From Bacteroidales bacterium (GTDB taxonomy: Bacteria > Bacteroidota > Bacteroidia > Bacteroidales > UBA932), in NCBI GenBank assembly GCA_017617495.1, contig JAFZWD010000027.1, forward strand, positions 1 through 52,160: a stretch of 52,160 bases of DNA, read 5' to 3'. This document shows, piece after piece, positions 11,513-19,783 of the stretch. The notes beneath the pieces are model-generated. The model was not told where the DNA came from, ran no database searches, and was given only the letters and a program-made list of their open reading frames with translations. The translations under genes and the position numbers were made by a program. The stretch's first letter is position 1. The number at the start of each line of letters is the position of its first letter.

Positions 11513-12409
11513 ATGAAAAGGTTAATTATATGTTTGCTGGGTGCGGCGCTAGGCGCAGCAGCGCTGGCGCAGCCGAAAGAGATAACCGTAAAGGCTGGCG
11601 ATATCGTCATCGAAATGGTTCGCATCGAGCCCGGCTCGGTGACGGTAGGGGATTCCACTTACACGGTGGACGCTCCGTTCTACATTGCCAAGAACATGGT
11701 CAAGTGGGGTGAGTGGTTCGATGTATGCGGCCATGGGACCCTTACCAAACCATTGGGAAAGGTCAGGGAGTATCCCGTACCTATGGATTATATTTCCAGG
11801 GACAAATGGACCGGAAAGCTGAAACCCGACGAAAACCACAGCAAGTATGTGGAACCGTTCGCGTACTGGATAAAAGCTCACGGCGGACAGATTCTCCGCC
11901 TGCCCACGCTTGCGGAATGGATGGTTGCCTGCGGTCCGGTGCCTGCCGCTGAAGATCTGGACAGAATCGCCTGGATTGACGGTGCAAGGCACGGCGTCGG
12001 GGAGAAAGAACCCAATGTCAACGGGGTGTACGATATAGTCGGCGGCAGGACCGAGATGGTGGAAGTGCCCGGAGACGGCTTCAGGTATATCGGCGGGCTG
12101 CCGCTGGTTGCCGCAAGGAAGCAGGCCCTCAAGAATCCCGAACTCCTCTATATGATCCGCAAGCAGCCGATGGACAACATGTGGGCCCCTTCCTTCCGGC
12201 TTGTTCTGCACGAAGAATCCGCAACGGCCCCGGCCGGTATTAAGCCGGAGGCTGCGCCTGCGCAGAATGCCGGACAGGCCGCCCCTGCCGCATCCCCCGA
12301 TGCCACGGCAATAAAAATCGCCCGCCAGATGCTCGCAAAGGGCATCGCCGACGAGACCATTGCCGAGTGCACCGGTCTTTCCCTGGAAGTAATCGCTGCG
12401 CTTAAATAG
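11513..12409 (+). CDS. Secreted formylglycine-generating-enzyme-like (SUMF1) protein with an unusual C-terminal tail
   Basis: A 298-residue protein with a Sec signal peptide (cleavage likely after ALA at about residue 19). Residues 20-235 resemble the FGE-sulfatase/SUMF1 fold: a start like MVRIEPGSVTVG, a middle LPTLAEWMVACG (usually LPTEAEWE) and NVNGVYDIVGGRTEMV (usually N-x-x-GLYDMxGNVWEW). The catalytic cysteine pair of true formylglycine enzymes is not apparent, so it is probably not an active FGE. After an Ala/Pro linker the last 35 residues (ending ETIAECTGLSLEVIAALK) resemble the short helical tail of Rpn-type PD-(D/E)XK proteins. It is the last gene before the CRISPR island. Confidence 0.55.
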   Translation: MKRLIICLLGAALGAAALAQPKEITVKAGDIVIEMVRIEPGSVTVGDSTYTVDAPFYIAKNMVKWGEWFDVCGHGTLTKPLGKVREYPVPMDYISRDKWTGKLKPDENHSKYVEPFAYWIKAHGGQILRLPTLAEWMVACGPVPAAEDLDRIAWIDGARHGVGEKEPNVNGVYDIVGGRTEMVEVPGDGFRYIGGLPLVAARKQALKNPELLYMIRKQPMDNMWAPSFRLVLHEESATAPAGIKPEAAPAQNAGQAAPAASPDATAIKIARQMLAKGIADETIAECTGLSLEVIAALK

Positions 12410-12418
12410 GAACCAAGA

Positions 12419-12527
12419 GCGTAAACGCTAATAGCTTGATTATCAGTTAAATATTAAAAATCTCCTCGGAATATTTCTGAGGAGATTTTTGATAAAGTGC
12501 TATGAATCAATAGTTTGGCGTTTACGC
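12419..12527. repeat. Inverted repeat GCGTAAACGC / GCGTTTACGC around a terminator
   Basis: GCGTAAACGC at 12419-12428 and its reverse complement at 12518-12527 flank the hairpin at 12456-12490. It marks the left edge of the AT-rich CRISPR island. Its function is unknown. Confidence 0.5.
12456..12490. terminator. Bidirectional hairpin terminator
   Basis: AAAAATCTCCTC (12456-12467) and GAGGAGATTTTT (12479-12490) form a perfect 12-bp stem with an 11-base loop and T-tracts in both directions. It ends the FGE-like transcript and would also stop leftward transcripts coming from the tracrRNA side. Confidence 0.85.
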
Positions 12528-12561
12528 GATTGAGCTGTATCCTCAAACGTAACCAATAATT

Positions 12562-12593
12562 TTTGCAATAAACGAACGCAATTCCTATATTTA
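12562..12593 (+). promoter_or_regulatory. Candidate cas9 operon promoter
   Basis: TTTG (12562-12565), a 20-base spacer and TATATTTA (12586-12593, one mismatch to TAnnTTTG) form the best plus-strand promoter upstream of cas9. A start near 12599 would give a 5' leader of about 140 nt that is antisense to the whole tracrRNA gene. Confidence 0.5.
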
Positions 12594-12627
12594 TGGCAGT
12601 GATTGGTATTGAAAGCCTGGTAAACAG

Positions 12628-12698
12628 AAAAAGCGAGTCTTTCAACCCGCTTTAAATGTTTTCACAACGGAATAATCCTTATTGTGAATTGCTTTCGA
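12628..12698 (-). ncRNA. tracrRNA of the type II-C CRISPR system
   Basis: The gene is read on the minus strand, divergent from cas9. An 18-nt anti-repeat (12699-12682) is identical to the plus-strand form of the CRISPR repeat and so can pair with crRNA. A nineteenth position would be a G-U wobble. Next comes a small GGA-loop-TCC stem (the nexus region, about 12679-12670), then TTGTGAAAACATT. The RNA ends in a 10-bp hairpin with a GAAA loop (12653-12630) followed by a U-run to 12628, a rho-independent terminator. A TATCTTTG box at 12711-12704 puts the start at about 12698, just at the anti-repeat, so the RNA should be about 71 nt. Both ends are inferred from sequence. Confidence 0.88.
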
Positions 12699-12703
12699 TA
12701 CAG

Positions 12704-12734
12704 CAAAGATAATGAATTATTGGAAGAAACGAAA
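12704..12734 (-). promoter_or_regulatory. tracrRNA promoter
   Basis: On the minus strand, TTTC (12734-12731), a 19-base spacer and TATCTTTG (12711-12704). The -7 octamer is identical to the one inside each CRISPR repeat. The promoter overlaps the last bases before the cas9 start codon at 12740. Confidence 0.65.
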
Positions 12735-12739
12735 GAAAT

Positions 12740-15700
12740 ATGAAAAAAGTACTCGGACTTGATCTCGGAACAACCAGCATTGGATGGGCATTGGTTAATC
12801 AGGCCGAAACCCCGGAAGAGAAGTCTTCAATCATTCGTGCAGGAGTTCGCGTGAATCCACTCTCTGTAGATGAAAAGGATTGCTTTGAGAAAGGAAAGGA
12901 TGTTGCCACGAACTCCGACAGAAGGTTGAAACGTTCTATGAGGAGGAACCTCCAGCGGTACAAATTAAGGAGGGAAAACCTAATCGCGCTTCTAAAAGAA
13001 AAAGGATGGATTGACGATTTGACAGTGCTCGCTGAATCAGGAATAGGTACTACTTTCGAGACCTACGCATTAAGAGCAAAGGCTCCAGTAGAAGAAATAA
13101 GTCTGTCTGATCTTGCCAGAGTGCTCTTGATGATCAATAAAAAACGAGGATACAAGAGCAGTCGAAAAATTAAAAGTGGAGAGGATGGTAAACTGTTCGA
13201 TGGCATAGCAGTAGCCAAAGAGCTTGCCGCGAGAGCAATTACGCCTGGGCAATATTCCTTGGAATTGTTAAAACAGGGTAAGAAGTACCTCCCTGATTTT
13301 TATACTTCGGATTTGCAAGACGAGTTAAGACGGATTTGCGGTTTTCAAAAACAGTATTACCCCGAGTTTCTCACCGCGGAGTTTATTGAAAGTATTAGGG
13401 GTAAAGGCAGGAACGAGATTGCCAAGTTGATTAAAGACAAATATGCAGTTCTCACTGCTGACAACAAGGGGAAGAATAAGAAAATACAAGCATTTACGTG
13501 GAGAACGAATGCACTGACAACCAGGCTGGGTATTGAAGAACTGGCGTACGTTATTGCTGATATTTGCGGCGCAATAAAGAATTCCTCCGGTTATCTGGGA
13601 GCAATAAGTAATCGAAGCAAGGAGCTACAGTTCAACAACGAGACAGTCGGTCAGTATTTGTACCGTCAAATCAAAGAGCATCCGGGACAGAGCATCAAGA
13701 ATACCACCTTCTATCGCCAGGACTATATAGATGAATTTGAAACGATATGGGAAAAGCAGAGTGCCTATCATAAAGAGCTTACTCCAGAGTTGAAGAAAGC
13801 CGTTAGAGATGAAGTCATCTTCTTTCAAAGAAGGTTAAAATCCCAAAAGGCACTTATTAGCAACTGTGAATTTGAAAAGCATCATAAAGCAGCCCCGAAG
13901 TCTTCCCTTTTGTTCCAGGAGTTCAGGACCTGGCAGATACTAAACAATGTTGTGGTGATTGACAAAGAATCCGGGGAGCAACGCCTGTTGTCTTTGGATG
14001 AAATGAATAGCTTGGCCTCTGAACTCTTCGTCAAAGGAAAACTGTCGTCAACAGAGGCTTTAAAAATTCTATTTAAGAGAGCCAAAGGTTACGAACTGAA
14101 CTATAAGTCCCTTGAAGGGAACACGACAGTTGAAGCAATTGCGGAAAAATTACTCGAGATTATCAACGTTGAGGATGACAGGGATTATGTCTTGACGAAG
14201 ATGACCGCCGAGGACGTATTACACGTTATAGCCACCACTTTCAAGAAATTAGGTTATAACGAACATATTATGGAGGAGCCGACGCTATCAATACTTTGGC
14301 ATCTCCTATATTCTTATGAGGGAGATAATTCTAGAACCGGAGAAGACGGGCTCATCAGAAAACTGGTTGAAATATGCAAAATTCCTAAAGAATATGCCGC
14401 GCTCCTGGCAGACATAAGTTTTGAAGATGATTATGGCTCATTGAGCAGCAGGGCTATGCGAAAGATTCTCCCATATCTGAAAGAGGGTAACACTTACGAT
14501 AAGGCCTGCTTTTATGCTGGCTATAACCACTCCCATTCAGAGACAACAGAAGAGAGAGAGAACAAGGAATTGAAAGACAGGCTGGATATTCTACCCAAAA
14601 ACAGCCTCAGAAATCCTGTGGTGGAGAAAATTATCAATCAGATGATAAATGTTGTTAATGCGGTATCTGAGTGTTATGGCAAGCCCGATGAAATAAATAT
14701 AGAACTGGCCAGATCGTTAAAGGATAACAAACAAAAGAGAGCAAAACGATACGAGGAGAATCAAGCTGCTGAAAAAGAAAATAAAAGAATAAGCGATTTG
14801 CTTAAGTCTGATTTCGGCTTTACCTATGTGAGAAAGTCAGATATTGAAAGATATCGGTTGTATGAAGAACTCAAACCACGAGGGTACAAAACGTTATACT
14901 CGGGCCAGTATATTCCAAGGGAAAAACTCTTCTCAAAAGAGATTGATATAGAGCACATCATTCCTCAGTCCGTACTTTTCAATGACTCATTTTCCAATAA
15001 AACATTGGAGTATAGAGCTGTGAATATAGAGAAAGCAGATGCTACCGCTCGAGACTATGTGGCTCTTAAGTACGGTGATGACCATCTTGCAGAGTATAAG
15101 GCAGACATTAATGACCTTCGAAATAACGGTTCAATCAGTTGGACAAAGGCAGCAAATCTCTGGATGAGAAAGGAAGATCTTCCGGAAGATTTTCTTGAAA
15201 GGGATTTGACGATGTCTGGCTATATCGCCAAAAAGGCCAAGGATGTTTTAAACTCTTACGTACGCGTCGTTCTGCCTACCAGTGGTAAGGTTACTTCCCG
15301 CTTGAGAGAAGACTGGCAGTTGGTTGATGTGATGAAAGAAATCAACATGCCAAAATATGATAAGTTAGGTATGACATTCGTGGATAATGGTTCGGAAGGG
15401 CACCCTGTCAAACGAATCAAAGATTGGAGTAAGCGTAATGATCACCGCCATCACGCGATGGATGCCTTGACGATTGCATTTACGCGGCCATCTCATATTC
15501 AGTACCTCAACCATATGAGCGCCAAAGACGACAAGAGTTCGGCCGTATATGGCATTATGGTAAAAGAAACCATAAGAACAAATAATGGCAGGATCTTCCT
15601 TCCTCCGATGCCATTGGATGAGTTGAGGGCCGCCTTCCGCAAAGAATTGGAATCAGTGTTGGTATCCATCAAAGCTAAGAACAAGGTGGTCACCAGGAAT

Positions 15701-16772
15701 GTTAACAAGTCCCGCAAAAGCGGCGGATATAATACTCGGATTGAGTTGACGCCGAGGGGGGCCTTGCATAAAGAAACCATTTATGGTAGCAGAATGATTC
15801 CAATCAGGGTTGAAATACCTGTGGGCGCCAAGTTGACAGAAGATATTATTGCTACTGTAGCCAAGAAGTCTGAGCGTGAAGCACTGGCGGCAAGGTTGGC
15901 TGCTTTCGGAGGAGATCCGAAGAAGGCTTTTACCGGAAAGAACTCCATAGAAAACAATCCAATCTTTGTTGATGCAATTCATTCAAAACAGATTGGACCA
16001 AAGGTGGCGTGCATAGAATACAAGCAGGTATACAGTATTCGGAAGGCAATCGACCCCTCCCTTAATGTGGAGAAAGTCCTGGATAAGAGAATAAAGGAAC
16101 TATTGCAGGCGCGTCTGGAAGAACACGGCGGGAATACTGCAAAAGCTTTCTCCAACCTTGATGAGAATCCAATCTGGCTGAACAGGGATAAGGGAATAGC
16201 AATCAAGACGGTTACCATTGCGGAGAATTTCGAAGAATTACAACCGTTGCATGAAAAACACGATAATCTGGGTCGCTTGATAACGGATGCTGATGGAAAC
16301 AAAATGCCAACGGATTATGTCAATCTCCGCAATAATCATCATGTCGCTATCTATGAGGATAGTGAAGGGAATTATCATGAGAAGGTCGTTTCTTTCTTTG
16401 AGGCGCTTGAACGAATCTCTGCGGGTCTTAGGCCGGTTGACAAAGACTGGAAGAGGGATGAGGGCTATAAGTTTGTCTTCAGTTTGAAGATTAATGAAAT
16501 GTTCGTATTTCCAAACGAAGAATTGGGGTTCTATCCTAAAGAGATTGATTTAATGAATCCTGAAAATTATCCGGCAATAAGCCCGAATTTGTTTAGGGTT
16601 CAAAAGCTGACGAGCGGCATCTACACGTTCCGACATCATCTGGAGACAGTATTAAACGACGATAAACAGTTGCAAGGGACTGCATGGAAAAGGGTATCCA
16701 GTATGAATAATCTTAAAACAGTTGTCAAGGTTCGAGTGAACCATATTGGCGAAATAGTTGCCGTAGGAGAGT

Positions 16773-16780
<8 letters not shown>
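12740..16780 (+). CDS. cas9: CRISPR-associated endonuclease Cas9, type II-C
   Basis: A 1346-residue RNA-guided DNA endonuclease. The RuvC-I motif is at the N-terminus with Asp8 (GLDLGTTSIGWAL). The arginine-rich bridge helix is at about 61-80. RuvC-II has Glu655 (NIELARS), the HNH catalytic histidine is His739 (DIEHIIPQS), and RuvC-III has His905 and Asp908 (HHAMDAL). All expected catalytic residues are present, so the protein looks intact. The size is near that of other Bacteroidetes type II-C Cas9 proteins. It works with crRNA and the tracrRNA encoded just upstream on the other strand. Its stop overlaps cas1 by 8 bp. The gene is clearly less GC-rich than the housekeeping genes around it, which suggests acquisition by transfer. 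The PAM cannot be deduced here. Confidence 0.98.
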
Positions 16781-18031
<1,251 letters not shown>

Positions 18032-18132: not shown

Positions 18133-19783
18133 GCTGTGGCTTCTATGTCAAAGATAGTAAATCGAAAGCAATTCACAACTTTTAGGTATTGTTACTGTTG
18201 ATTAATTATGCTGTGGCTTCTATGTCAAAGATAGTAAATCGAAAGCAATTCACAACTATCGCTGCTCTCCGTGCTGCTAATAGTCTGCTGTGGCTTCTAT
18301 GTCAAAGATAGTAAATCGAAAGCAATTCACAACCTAAACGTGAGCGTCTTGATATTGCTGTTGGCTGTGGCTTCTATGTCAAAGATAGTAAATCGAAAGC
18401 AATTCACAACTGTAACAAAATATATGTTGAAGCGTTCTGAGCTGTGGCTTCTATGTCAAAGATAGTAAATCGAAAGCAATTCACAACATGCTGATTGGCG
18501 TGATCTTCAGTTATGCGCTGTGGCTTCTATGTCAAAGATAGTAAATCGAAAGCAATTCACAACGCCTCCGCCGTAAGGGCATCGATGGATAAGGCTGTGG
18601 CTTCTATGTCAAAGATAGTAAATCGAAAGCAATTCACAACCGCACCAGTAAGCGCACGACCGGACTTGGGCTGTGGCTTCTATGTCAAAGATAGTAAATC
18701 GAAAGCAATTCACAACGGTATTTCTACATGAACGAATTTGTTCAGCGCTGTGGCTTCTATGTCAAAGATAGTAAATCGAAAGCAATTCACAACGGATTAT
18801 GTGTATAGTAGAATACACAGTAAGCTGTGGCTTCTATGTCAAAGATAGTAAATCGAAAGCAATTCACAACGTAAAAAAGGGCGCCCTTTGGAGAGGTGAG
18901 CTGTGGCTTCTATGTCAAAGATAGTAAATCGAAAGCAATTCACAACTCTTCGAACATAATTCAAAATCAAAACCGAGCTGTGGCTTCTATGTCAAAGATA
19001 GTAAATCGAAAGCAATTCACAACTAAAGATTAGTTATGAAAAAGTTTCTTCAGGCTGTGGCTTCTATGTCAAAGATAGTAAATCGAAAGCAATTCACAAC
19101 ACCGTGACCCTGAGGGCAACCTTCAGAGGGCTGTGGCTTCTATGTCAAAGATAGTAAATCGAAAGCAATTCACAACGTAAAAATACTTGCAAAAGCAAAT
19201 TTTTTCGCTGTGGCTTCTATGTCAAAGATAGTAAATCGAAAGCAATTCACAACCCGGAGTGCCTACGGCAACTTTCGATTGCAGCTGTGGCTTCTATGTC
19301 AAAGATAGTAAATCGAAAGCAATTCACAACTCTGACGAGGGCTCCTCTTCCGTTCCCGCCGCTGTGGCTTCTATGTCAAAGATAGTAAATCGAAAGCAAT
19401 TCACAACCTGACGATACAAACAAGCTTGTCGAAACAAGCTGTGGCTTCTATGTCAAAGATAGTAAATCGAAAGCAATTCACAACGCATTCAGCCTCATTC
19501 CGTTCCAACCGGCAGCTGTGGCTTCTATGTCAAAGATAGTAAATCGAAAGCAATTCACAACTAGAGCCTTTCCATCTCCGTCTCGCCCTTCGCTGTGGCT
19601 TCTATGTCAAAGATAGTAAATCGAAAGCAATTCACAACGGATAATTACTTTATGAAATTTTTGCAAAGCTGTGGCTTCTATGTCAAAGATAGTAAATCGA
19701 AAGCAATTCACAACAAAATGACTATGAGAACGACCGTTACACTTGCTGTGGCTTCTATGTCAAAGATAGTAAATCGAAAGCAA
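18133..19783 (-). CRISPR. Type II-C CRISPR array: 22 repeats, 21 spacers
   Basis: There are 21 apparently identical 47-bp repeats and a truncated 22nd (19745-19783), separated by 21 spacers of 29-30 bp. On the plus strand each repeat begins GCTGTGGCTTCTATG and ends GAAAGCAATTCACAAC. The crRNA sense is the minus strand (repeat starting GTTGTGAATTGCTTTCGAT), because that form pairs with the tracrRNA anti-repeat. Each intact repeat contains TTG at repeat positions 2-4, a 19-base gap and TATCTTTG at positions 24-31 (minus-strand numbering), a complete promoter aimed at the adjacent spacer. The last repeat has lost the 8 bases that would be repeat positions 1-8, including the -33 TTG. Five spacers are 29 bp and the rest 30 bp. 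Spacer targets were not searched. Confidence 0.97.
19745..19783 (-). repeat. Degenerate terminal CRISPR repeat
   Basis: The first 39 of 47 plus-strand bases match the repeat; the remaining TTCACAAC is replaced by CCCGGCTT. It is the transcription-start end of the array and the presumed old end for spacer acquisition. The -7 box is intact and the -33 element is lost. Confidence 0.9.

Follow-up and report, generated by a model that had tools for sequence, protein, structure and literature searches.

The question raised by the type II-C CRISPR (clustered regularly interspaced short palindromic repeats) locus in the window, i.e. the whole analysed stretch of 52,160 nucleotides (nt) of Bacteroidales contig JAFZWD010000027.1, is where transcription of cas9 begins when the gene for the trans-activating CRISPR RNA (tracrRNA) lies antisense, directly upstream of it. 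A sequence-only reading had proposed a cas9 promoter beyond the tracrRNA gene, giving an mRNA with a complement of the entire tracrRNA in its 5' leader, and a coupling of guide supply to nuclease supply. Comparison with related loci in the current study shows that the cas9/tracrRNA layout has two states, which seems to be new; these differ in the distance between tracrRNA and cas9 and in the presence of a promoter box between them. The window has the short-gap state, and its cas9 is rather likely to be transcribed from beyond the tracrRNA gene, with a full antisense leader. The window holds a type II-C locus with a probable antisense cas9 leader, one member of a widespread class. That such a leader regulates, each unit limiting the other, is a tentative proposal. 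Promoter use and the position of the transcription start are inferred from the following elements.

nt 12562 – 12565, plus strand: putative cas9 promoter, -33 element TTTG (sequence, promoter models)
nt 12586 – 12593, plus strand: putative cas9 promoter, -7 element TATATTTA (Bacteroidota consensus TAnnTTTG; spacer of 20 bp after TTTG)
nt 12599 – 12739, plus strand: predicted cas9 5' leader, antisense to the whole tracrRNA (start placed near 12599 – 12601 by box spacing)
nt 12628 – 12698, minus strand: predicted tracrRNA gene, 71 nt (ends as in the sequence-only reading)
nt 12630 – 12653, minus strand: tracrRNA terminator stem (sequence scan and fold)
nt 12682 – 12699, minus strand: anti-repeat, complementary without mismatch to 18 nt of the CRISPR repeat (18/18)
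nt 12704 – 12711, minus strand: tracrRNA promoter, -7 box TATCTTTG (read off the sequence)
nt 12730 – 12734, minus strand: TTTCG, candidate -33-like element of the tracrRNA promoter (weak match, 18 bp from the -7 box)
nt 12740 – 16780, plus strand: cas9, 1346 amino acids (TIGR01865, 2.9e-157)

The predicted tracrRNA has good support: it shows the anti-repeat, hairpin and terminator of type II-C systems, and its 71 nt fold at -22.4 kcal/mol (z -4.4). Only 41 bp separate its gene from the cas9 ATG, and its promoter overlaps the bases right before cas9, as had been claimed (TATCTTTG at 12711 – 12704 and TTTCG at 12734 – 12730, with the ATG at 12740). In 133 of 145 related loci the corresponding position has a loose -7-type tracrRNA promoter box, and the tracrRNA core, CACAACGGAATAATCCTTATTGTGA (nt 12663 – 12687 in the window), is exact in 115 of them. 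These 145 loci are a first set and a held-out set pooled after removal of duplicates (L010, L190 and L107 from the former; L195, L198 and L230 from the latter). They derive from Cas9 searches in which matching genomes numbered 44 of 400 for the genus, 78 of 398 for the family, 162 of 393 for the order, 38 of 395 for the class (E 1e-60) and 46 of 390 for a second order of the class, presumably Flavobacteriales; the search sets overlap in part, and many of the matches are more distant Cas9s. Loci without a Cas9 start (L011, L182) or in which no ATG was found (L245, L249, L251) were dropped before counting. In the first set, 102 of 109 loci have a minus-strand core no farther than 1.5 kb upstream of cas9 (plus strand in three, none in four). 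The corresponding figure in the held-out set is 49 of 66; the remaining 17 show no core by the pattern used, which is perhaps too narrow for them, as most carry more distant Cas9s. It is therefore nothing unusual in these groups for cas9 to be preceded by an antisense tracrRNA.

The distance from core to ATG is bimodal across the 145 loci: 66 lie at 38 – 71 nt, 79 at 80 nt or more, and none at 72 – 79 nt. The same bimodality is seen in the first set alone and in the held-out set alone. The short-gap class is defined here by a distance below 75 nt, and gaps above 260 nt (L121, L140, L162, L174, L175, L234, L258, L261) were kept out of the long-gap class. Apart from the tracrRNA promoter and the last part of the anti-repeat, a short gap can hold hardly anything. 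The distance in the window is 52 nt.

Promoter boxes were counted as TAnnTTT[GA] on the plus strand and compared with dinucleotide shuffles. In the first set (42 short-gap and 52 long-gap loci), 45 of the 52 long gaps contain a box (15.4 expected) as against 3 of the 42 short gaps (2.8 expected), and this was replicated in the held-out set (12/19, 5.8 expected, and 2/24, 2.8 expected). Within the window's own order the figures are 57/63 (18.6 expected) for long gaps and 3/29 (2.2 expected, window included) for short ones; short-gap loci of other orders have 2/37 (3.7 expected). The cas9 box of long-gap loci mostly lies about 25 – 60 nt before the ATG, back to back with the tracrRNA promoter, while the window has no plus-strand box between core and ATG. 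The contrast holds in phylogenetically independent pairs (gap box against short state, 0.0 vs 6.8 of 11, median p 0.016; in a second set of pairs, 0.2 vs 9.7 of 18, median p 0.004). Shared ancestry therefore does not account for the loss of the gap promoter; the box beyond the tracrRNA is enriched, but shows no significant association in such pairs.

The 60 nt beyond the tracrRNA show this enrichment in the first set, where 19 of 41 short-gap loci have a box (6.6 expected; reached in 0 of 500 shuffles; 6 on the minus strand), compared with 8 of 52 long-gap loci (5.2 expected). Farther upstream than this stretch the first set has no box enrichment. For the window's own order the counts are 15 of 28 short-gap loci (4.7 expected; 0 of 300 shuffles; minus-strand control 6) and 8 of 62 long-gap loci (6.1 expected). 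A -7 model, trained on tracrRNA promoters and given hand-set -33 weights, scores short-gap above long-gap loci beyond the tracrRNA in the own order (p 8.8e-5), and the plus strand above the minus strand in short-gap (p 0.004) but not in long-gap loci (p 0.69); in other orders it is marginal (p 0.16 and 0.04).

In the window itself, the elements TTTG and TATATTTA stand exactly where the sequence-only reading had placed them, with a spacer of 20 bp; the last base of TATATTTA is A where the consensus has G. A sigma-70 scan of nt 12380 – 12800 finds two overlapping plus-strand sites, both of them TTTG-N20-TATATTTA, and no other place on that strand, so that its description as the only good plus-strand promoter is fair. 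Over both strands, three sites against 1.3 in shuffles is weak by itself. A model trained on the cas9 promoters of relatives gives the window promoter a shuffle p of about 0.01 (200 shuffles), and the -7 model, with its hand-set TTTG weights, ranks it 6th of 65 short-gap loci. The window thus agrees with the short-gap class in its distance, its empty gap and its plus-strand promoter beyond the tracrRNA, the last by consensus only.

A number of results weigh against a cas9 start beyond the tracrRNA, or against any importance of it. The position of the tracrRNA, being common to the order, is not special to the window, which weakens the interpretation first given to it. The 60-nt interval was picked after the first-set sequences had been viewed, and in the held-out set, a replication fixed beforehand, the box beyond the tracrRNA occurs in 5 of 24 short-gap loci (3.6 expected; 125 of 500 shuffles) and 3 of 18 long-gap loci (1.3 expected), i.e. 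the replication failed. The overall failure is explained by a signal that differs between orders, according to a split by order that was made post hoc. Short-gap loci of other orders have the box in 9 of 37 cases (5.5 expected; exact TAnnTTTG in 6 of 37, 2.1 expected), and the eight long-gap loci of those orders break the rule, with boxes in 0/8 gaps and in 3/8 stretches beyond the tracrRNA. Independent pairs show no significant association for the box beyond the tracrRNA (2.0 vs 1.4 of 11; in the second set of pairs 6.6 vs 2.3 of 18, median p 0.23). The locus with the nearest full-length Cas9 (L088, 64%), also short-gap, is without a consensus box and has TAAATTCG, with TTG 19 bp before it; L104 is long-gap, yet the first 135 residues of its Cas9 are 67% like those of the window. 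A two-box model trained on long-gap cas9 promoters was rejected as a test: among short-gap loci 4 of 41 reach p of 0.05 or less beyond the tracrRNA, among long-gap loci 5 of 53. Its -33 part is poor, probably because it had in part picked up the -33 element of the tracrRNA on the other strand, and it is relied on only for the window's own score. The sequence-only reading had suggested comparing the spacing in related loci: this yielded the two-state spacing and the gap-box contrast, but an enrichment beyond the tracrRNA that was not replicated in the held-out set.

On a Cas9 tree (71 rows, FastTree) there are 13 changes between short and long states, 11 of them forced by firm branches, where shuffled labels give a mean of 21.3; a tree of the N-terminal part of Cas9 has 29. 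The window pairs with L088, and both fall in a firm clade of seven rows alongside five long-gap loci.

Several further observations concern the compared loci. The tracrRNA core is on the plus strand in L095, L098 and L187; the first two form one firm clade with L093, in which no core was found within 1.5 kb, and would represent an inverted or moved tracrRNA cassette. In a viral contig collection the exact core occurs in four contigs of putative viral origin (L264 – L267). One (L265) carries relatives of cas9, cas1 and cas2, two (L267 and L264) end in the start of cas9, and in the part of L266 covered no relative of these three genes was found; a Cas9 search of the collection gave no match. In two cas9 relatives (G290:C61 and G443:C11) the match spans one stop codon each (TGA and TAG, according to the search listing). 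Upstream of cas9-tracrRNA, about 100 – 160 nt from the core, some loci have an inverted repeat, GACA-N5-TGTC (L168, L197, L199, L200, L216, L220, and twice in L110). Of the short-gap loci 6 of 66 contain it (0.1 expected), of the long-gap loci 1 of 79 (0.3 expected). It could be an operator; these loci may be closely related to one another.

If cas9 is transcribed from nt 12562 – 12593, its promoter would face that of the tracrRNA across about 100 bp, and a transcript from about nt 12599 – 12601 would carry, before the ATG, the full tracrRNA complement and part of the CRISPR RNA (crRNA) repeat. The plus strand of nt 12682 – 12699 equals 18 nt from the 5' part of that repeat. The perfect complementarity that had been claimed holds by construction, given a start beyond the tracrRNA. 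The tracrRNA promoter would fill the 41-bp gap, and no cas9 promoter of its own would remain there. Mutual limitation might then arise through interference between RNA polymerases on the facing promoters, or through pairing of leader and tracrRNA that would draw the latter from the pool available to crRNAs. The computed duplex of leader and tracrRNA has -121 kcal/mol, compared with -31.2 for the leader alone, -22.4 for the tracrRNA alone and -26.8 for the tracrRNA with the first 24 nt of the repeat. Paired along its entire length, the tracrRNA would be unfolded, and the duplex is likelier to be a sink than a guide. The most far-reaching version makes the cas9 mRNA of short-gap loci a built-in anti-tracrRNA, at once a full-length antisense sponge and a mimic of the crRNA repeat, with promoters firing into each other, repeated switches between this coupled state and a divergent one whose two units have just a promoter region in common, and, where ribonuclease III (RNase III) is missing, a duplex that is a stable sink; it is unlikely in this full form.

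RNase III bears directly on this. The family TIGR02191 was found in 0 of 13 genomes of the genus (the window's own included; two of the other 12 are more than 90% complete), which again counts against the proposal. In the window's own genome PF14622 gave no match at E up to 10, although that genome is 74% complete and a very divergent enzyme could escape. Of eight genomes that represent other families within the order, 7 gave an RNase III match in the same search, as did Bacteroides ihuae among the controls. Cleavage of a leader-tracrRNA pair by RNase III is doubtful. Loss or strong divergence of the enzyme across a genus would be notable in its own right. Of the suggested coupling of guide and nuclease supply, promoter collision remains geometrically possible, with facing promoters about 100 bp apart, but the RNase III route lacks its enzyme in the genus as searched.

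Two further features of the leader were considered. A stem that would hide the repeat mimic (nt 12606 – 12616 with approximately 12691 – 12701) was dropped in view of the overall fold (z -1.2). An 18-codon reading frame at nt 12656 – 12712 (plus strand) begins within the tracrRNA complement; an ATG just before the core occurs in 129 of the 145 loci because the tracrRNA is conserved. Coupling of this frame to cas9 was rejected, as the seven short-gap loci in which it ends in the cas9 ATGA are, by eye, not beyond what reading-frame chance would give.

The remainder of the locus, which lies in a genome assembly of 1.51 Mb (74% complete), comprises the following.

nt 12414 – 12532, no strand: near-perfect palindromic element separating the upstream gene from the CRISPR locus, with a terminator-like centre on both strands
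nt 16773 – 17699, plus strand: cas1 (TIGR03639, 3.2e-95)
nt 17699 – 18031, plus strand: cas2 (TIGR01573, 1.8e-19)
nt 18133 – 19783, minus strand (assumed reading strand): CRISPR array, 47-nt repeats, spacers of 29 – 30 nt

The order cas9-cas1-cas2-array, with the cas genes abutting on the plus strand and the array next, is that of type II-C, and neither csn2 nor cas4 is present in the cas operon (no genome-wide search was made). The array has 21 exact repeats with 20 spacers between them, and a degenerate final repeat; the spacers have no match of 14 nt or more to the window, and Rfam at its gathering threshold has no match within it. Read on the minus strand, every repeat contains TTG-N19-TATCTTTG, a putative repeat-internal promoter of the Bacteroidota type, and CAAAGATA recurs in the repeats of many relatives. 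Promoters inside the repeats are a frequent, though not obligatory, trait of type II-C systems. Such boxes would yield crRNAs without RNase III, as proposed for the repeat-internal promoters of Flavobacterium columnare (PMC8092290) and F. psychrophilum (PMC10309648). The arms of the palindrome are 58 nt long and 71% complementary (ungapped; fold -56 kcal/mol, z -10.2). It is a small repeated inverted-repeat element, which has similar counterparts on four other contigs of this genome (C16, C24, C46 and C29).

The predicted architecture does not require that the overlap matters. Under neutral compaction the intervening promoter would have been lost and the cas9 start moved beyond the tracrRNA with no consequence, leader and tracrRNA rarely meeting or Cas9 capturing the tracrRNA first. 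This explanation, which shares the antisense architecture with the regulatory one, is a distinct possibility: the 13 changes on the main tree (11 firm) and 29 on the N-terminal tree indicate a feature easily gained and lost, and the fold of the leader is no more stable than that of shuffles (z -1.2), which at the same time tells against a regulatory leader. Less easily accommodated are the clustering of short gaps at 51 – 59 nt (42 of 66), just enough for the tracrRNA promoter, and of the two states on the tree (13 changes vs a mean of 21.3), neither of which shows regulation. Alternatively, a promoter that lacks a TAnnTTTG box could start cas9 transcription inside the tracrRNA gene or in the 41 bp before the ATG; the leader would then be short and have hardly any antisense sequence, or none. 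Promoters can physically overlap, and in the stretch searched beyond the tracrRNA a consensus box is missing from 13 of 28 short-gap loci in the own order (again a mark against a start beyond the tracrRNA) and from 28 of 37 in other orders. As gap boxes are at chance in short-gap loci (3/29 vs 2.2; 2/37 vs 3.7) and the window's box beyond the tracrRNA scores well, this alternative is rather unlikely here.

Read-through from the upstream gene (nt 11513 – 12409), which is on the same strand and 330 bp away, would make cas9 co-transcribed and the antisense RNA incidental. The palindrome with its terminator-like centre lies in between, and has counterparts elsewhere in the genome; cas9 should therefore be insulated from upstream transcription, and read-through is improbable. 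Autorepression guided by Cas9, the mode of action of a long tracrRNA (tracr-L) in Streptococcus pyogenes, is suggested by a tracrRNA that adjoins the cas promoter region here too. Tracr-L has an 11-nt match next to a protospacer adjacent motif (PMC8616872), while the longest word common to the 250 bp minus-strand extension tested (nt 12950 – 12699) and nt 12500 – 12739 is 9 nt, and a similar mechanism in the window is highly improbable. A cas9 transcript from beyond the tracrRNA is consistent with the absence of gap boxes above chance in short-gap relatives and with the own-order enrichment beyond the tracrRNA, but the held-out enrichment (5/24 vs 3.6) failed to appear.

What fixes the ratio of Cas9 to guide RNA in type II-C systems is still largely open. 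If it is true that about half of the loci have an antisense leader and the rest separate transcripts, they would offer natural paired loci for testing the effect of overlap on Cas9 and tracrRNA levels. Annotated 'intergenic' tracrRNAs could then sit inside a cas9 transcript, which is a warning for annotation, and even if the overlap is neutral the two-state map makes a simple prediction of where cas9 starts. Among the open-access papers searched, none was found that deals with where cas9 transcription begins with respect to the tracrRNA in such bacteria.

Cis-encoded antisense RNAs are perfectly antisense, being made from opposite strands of one locus, and their usual partner is RNase III. The arrangement proposed for the window differs from them in that the partners would be a tracrRNA and the mRNA of its own nuclease, and in that RNase III was not found in the genus. 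The type II-C loci of Riemerella anatipestifer, F. columnare and F. psychrophilum have the same cas9, cas1, cas2 and array, and an anti-repeat upstream of cas9, known from R. anatipestifer, for which no promoters in the repeats are reported (PMC5006608). Where cas9 starts relative to the tracrRNA is not discussed in the available passages on these three species. In F. psychrophilum CN46 an insertion sequence, IS982, sits between tracrRNA and cas9, and the TAnnTTTG promoter proposed for cas9 lies inside it, 153 bp upstream of the gene; the same paper does not settle how the tracrRNA is transcribed (PMC10309648). Like the tracr-L of type II-A S. pyogenes, the window's tracrRNA locus would act on its own cas genes (PMC11417352); in tracr-L the tracrRNA is extended and directs Cas9 to the cas promoter, whereas the link proposed here is an antisense overlap, and no guide was found. 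The noncanonical crRNAs of Campylobacter jejuni (PMC8224270) likewise contain repeat sequence, of which the predicted cas9 leader holds 18 nt exactly. Unlike theirs, the complementarity of this leader would span the whole tracrRNA and should unfold it, and the mRNA concerned is that of cas9 itself.

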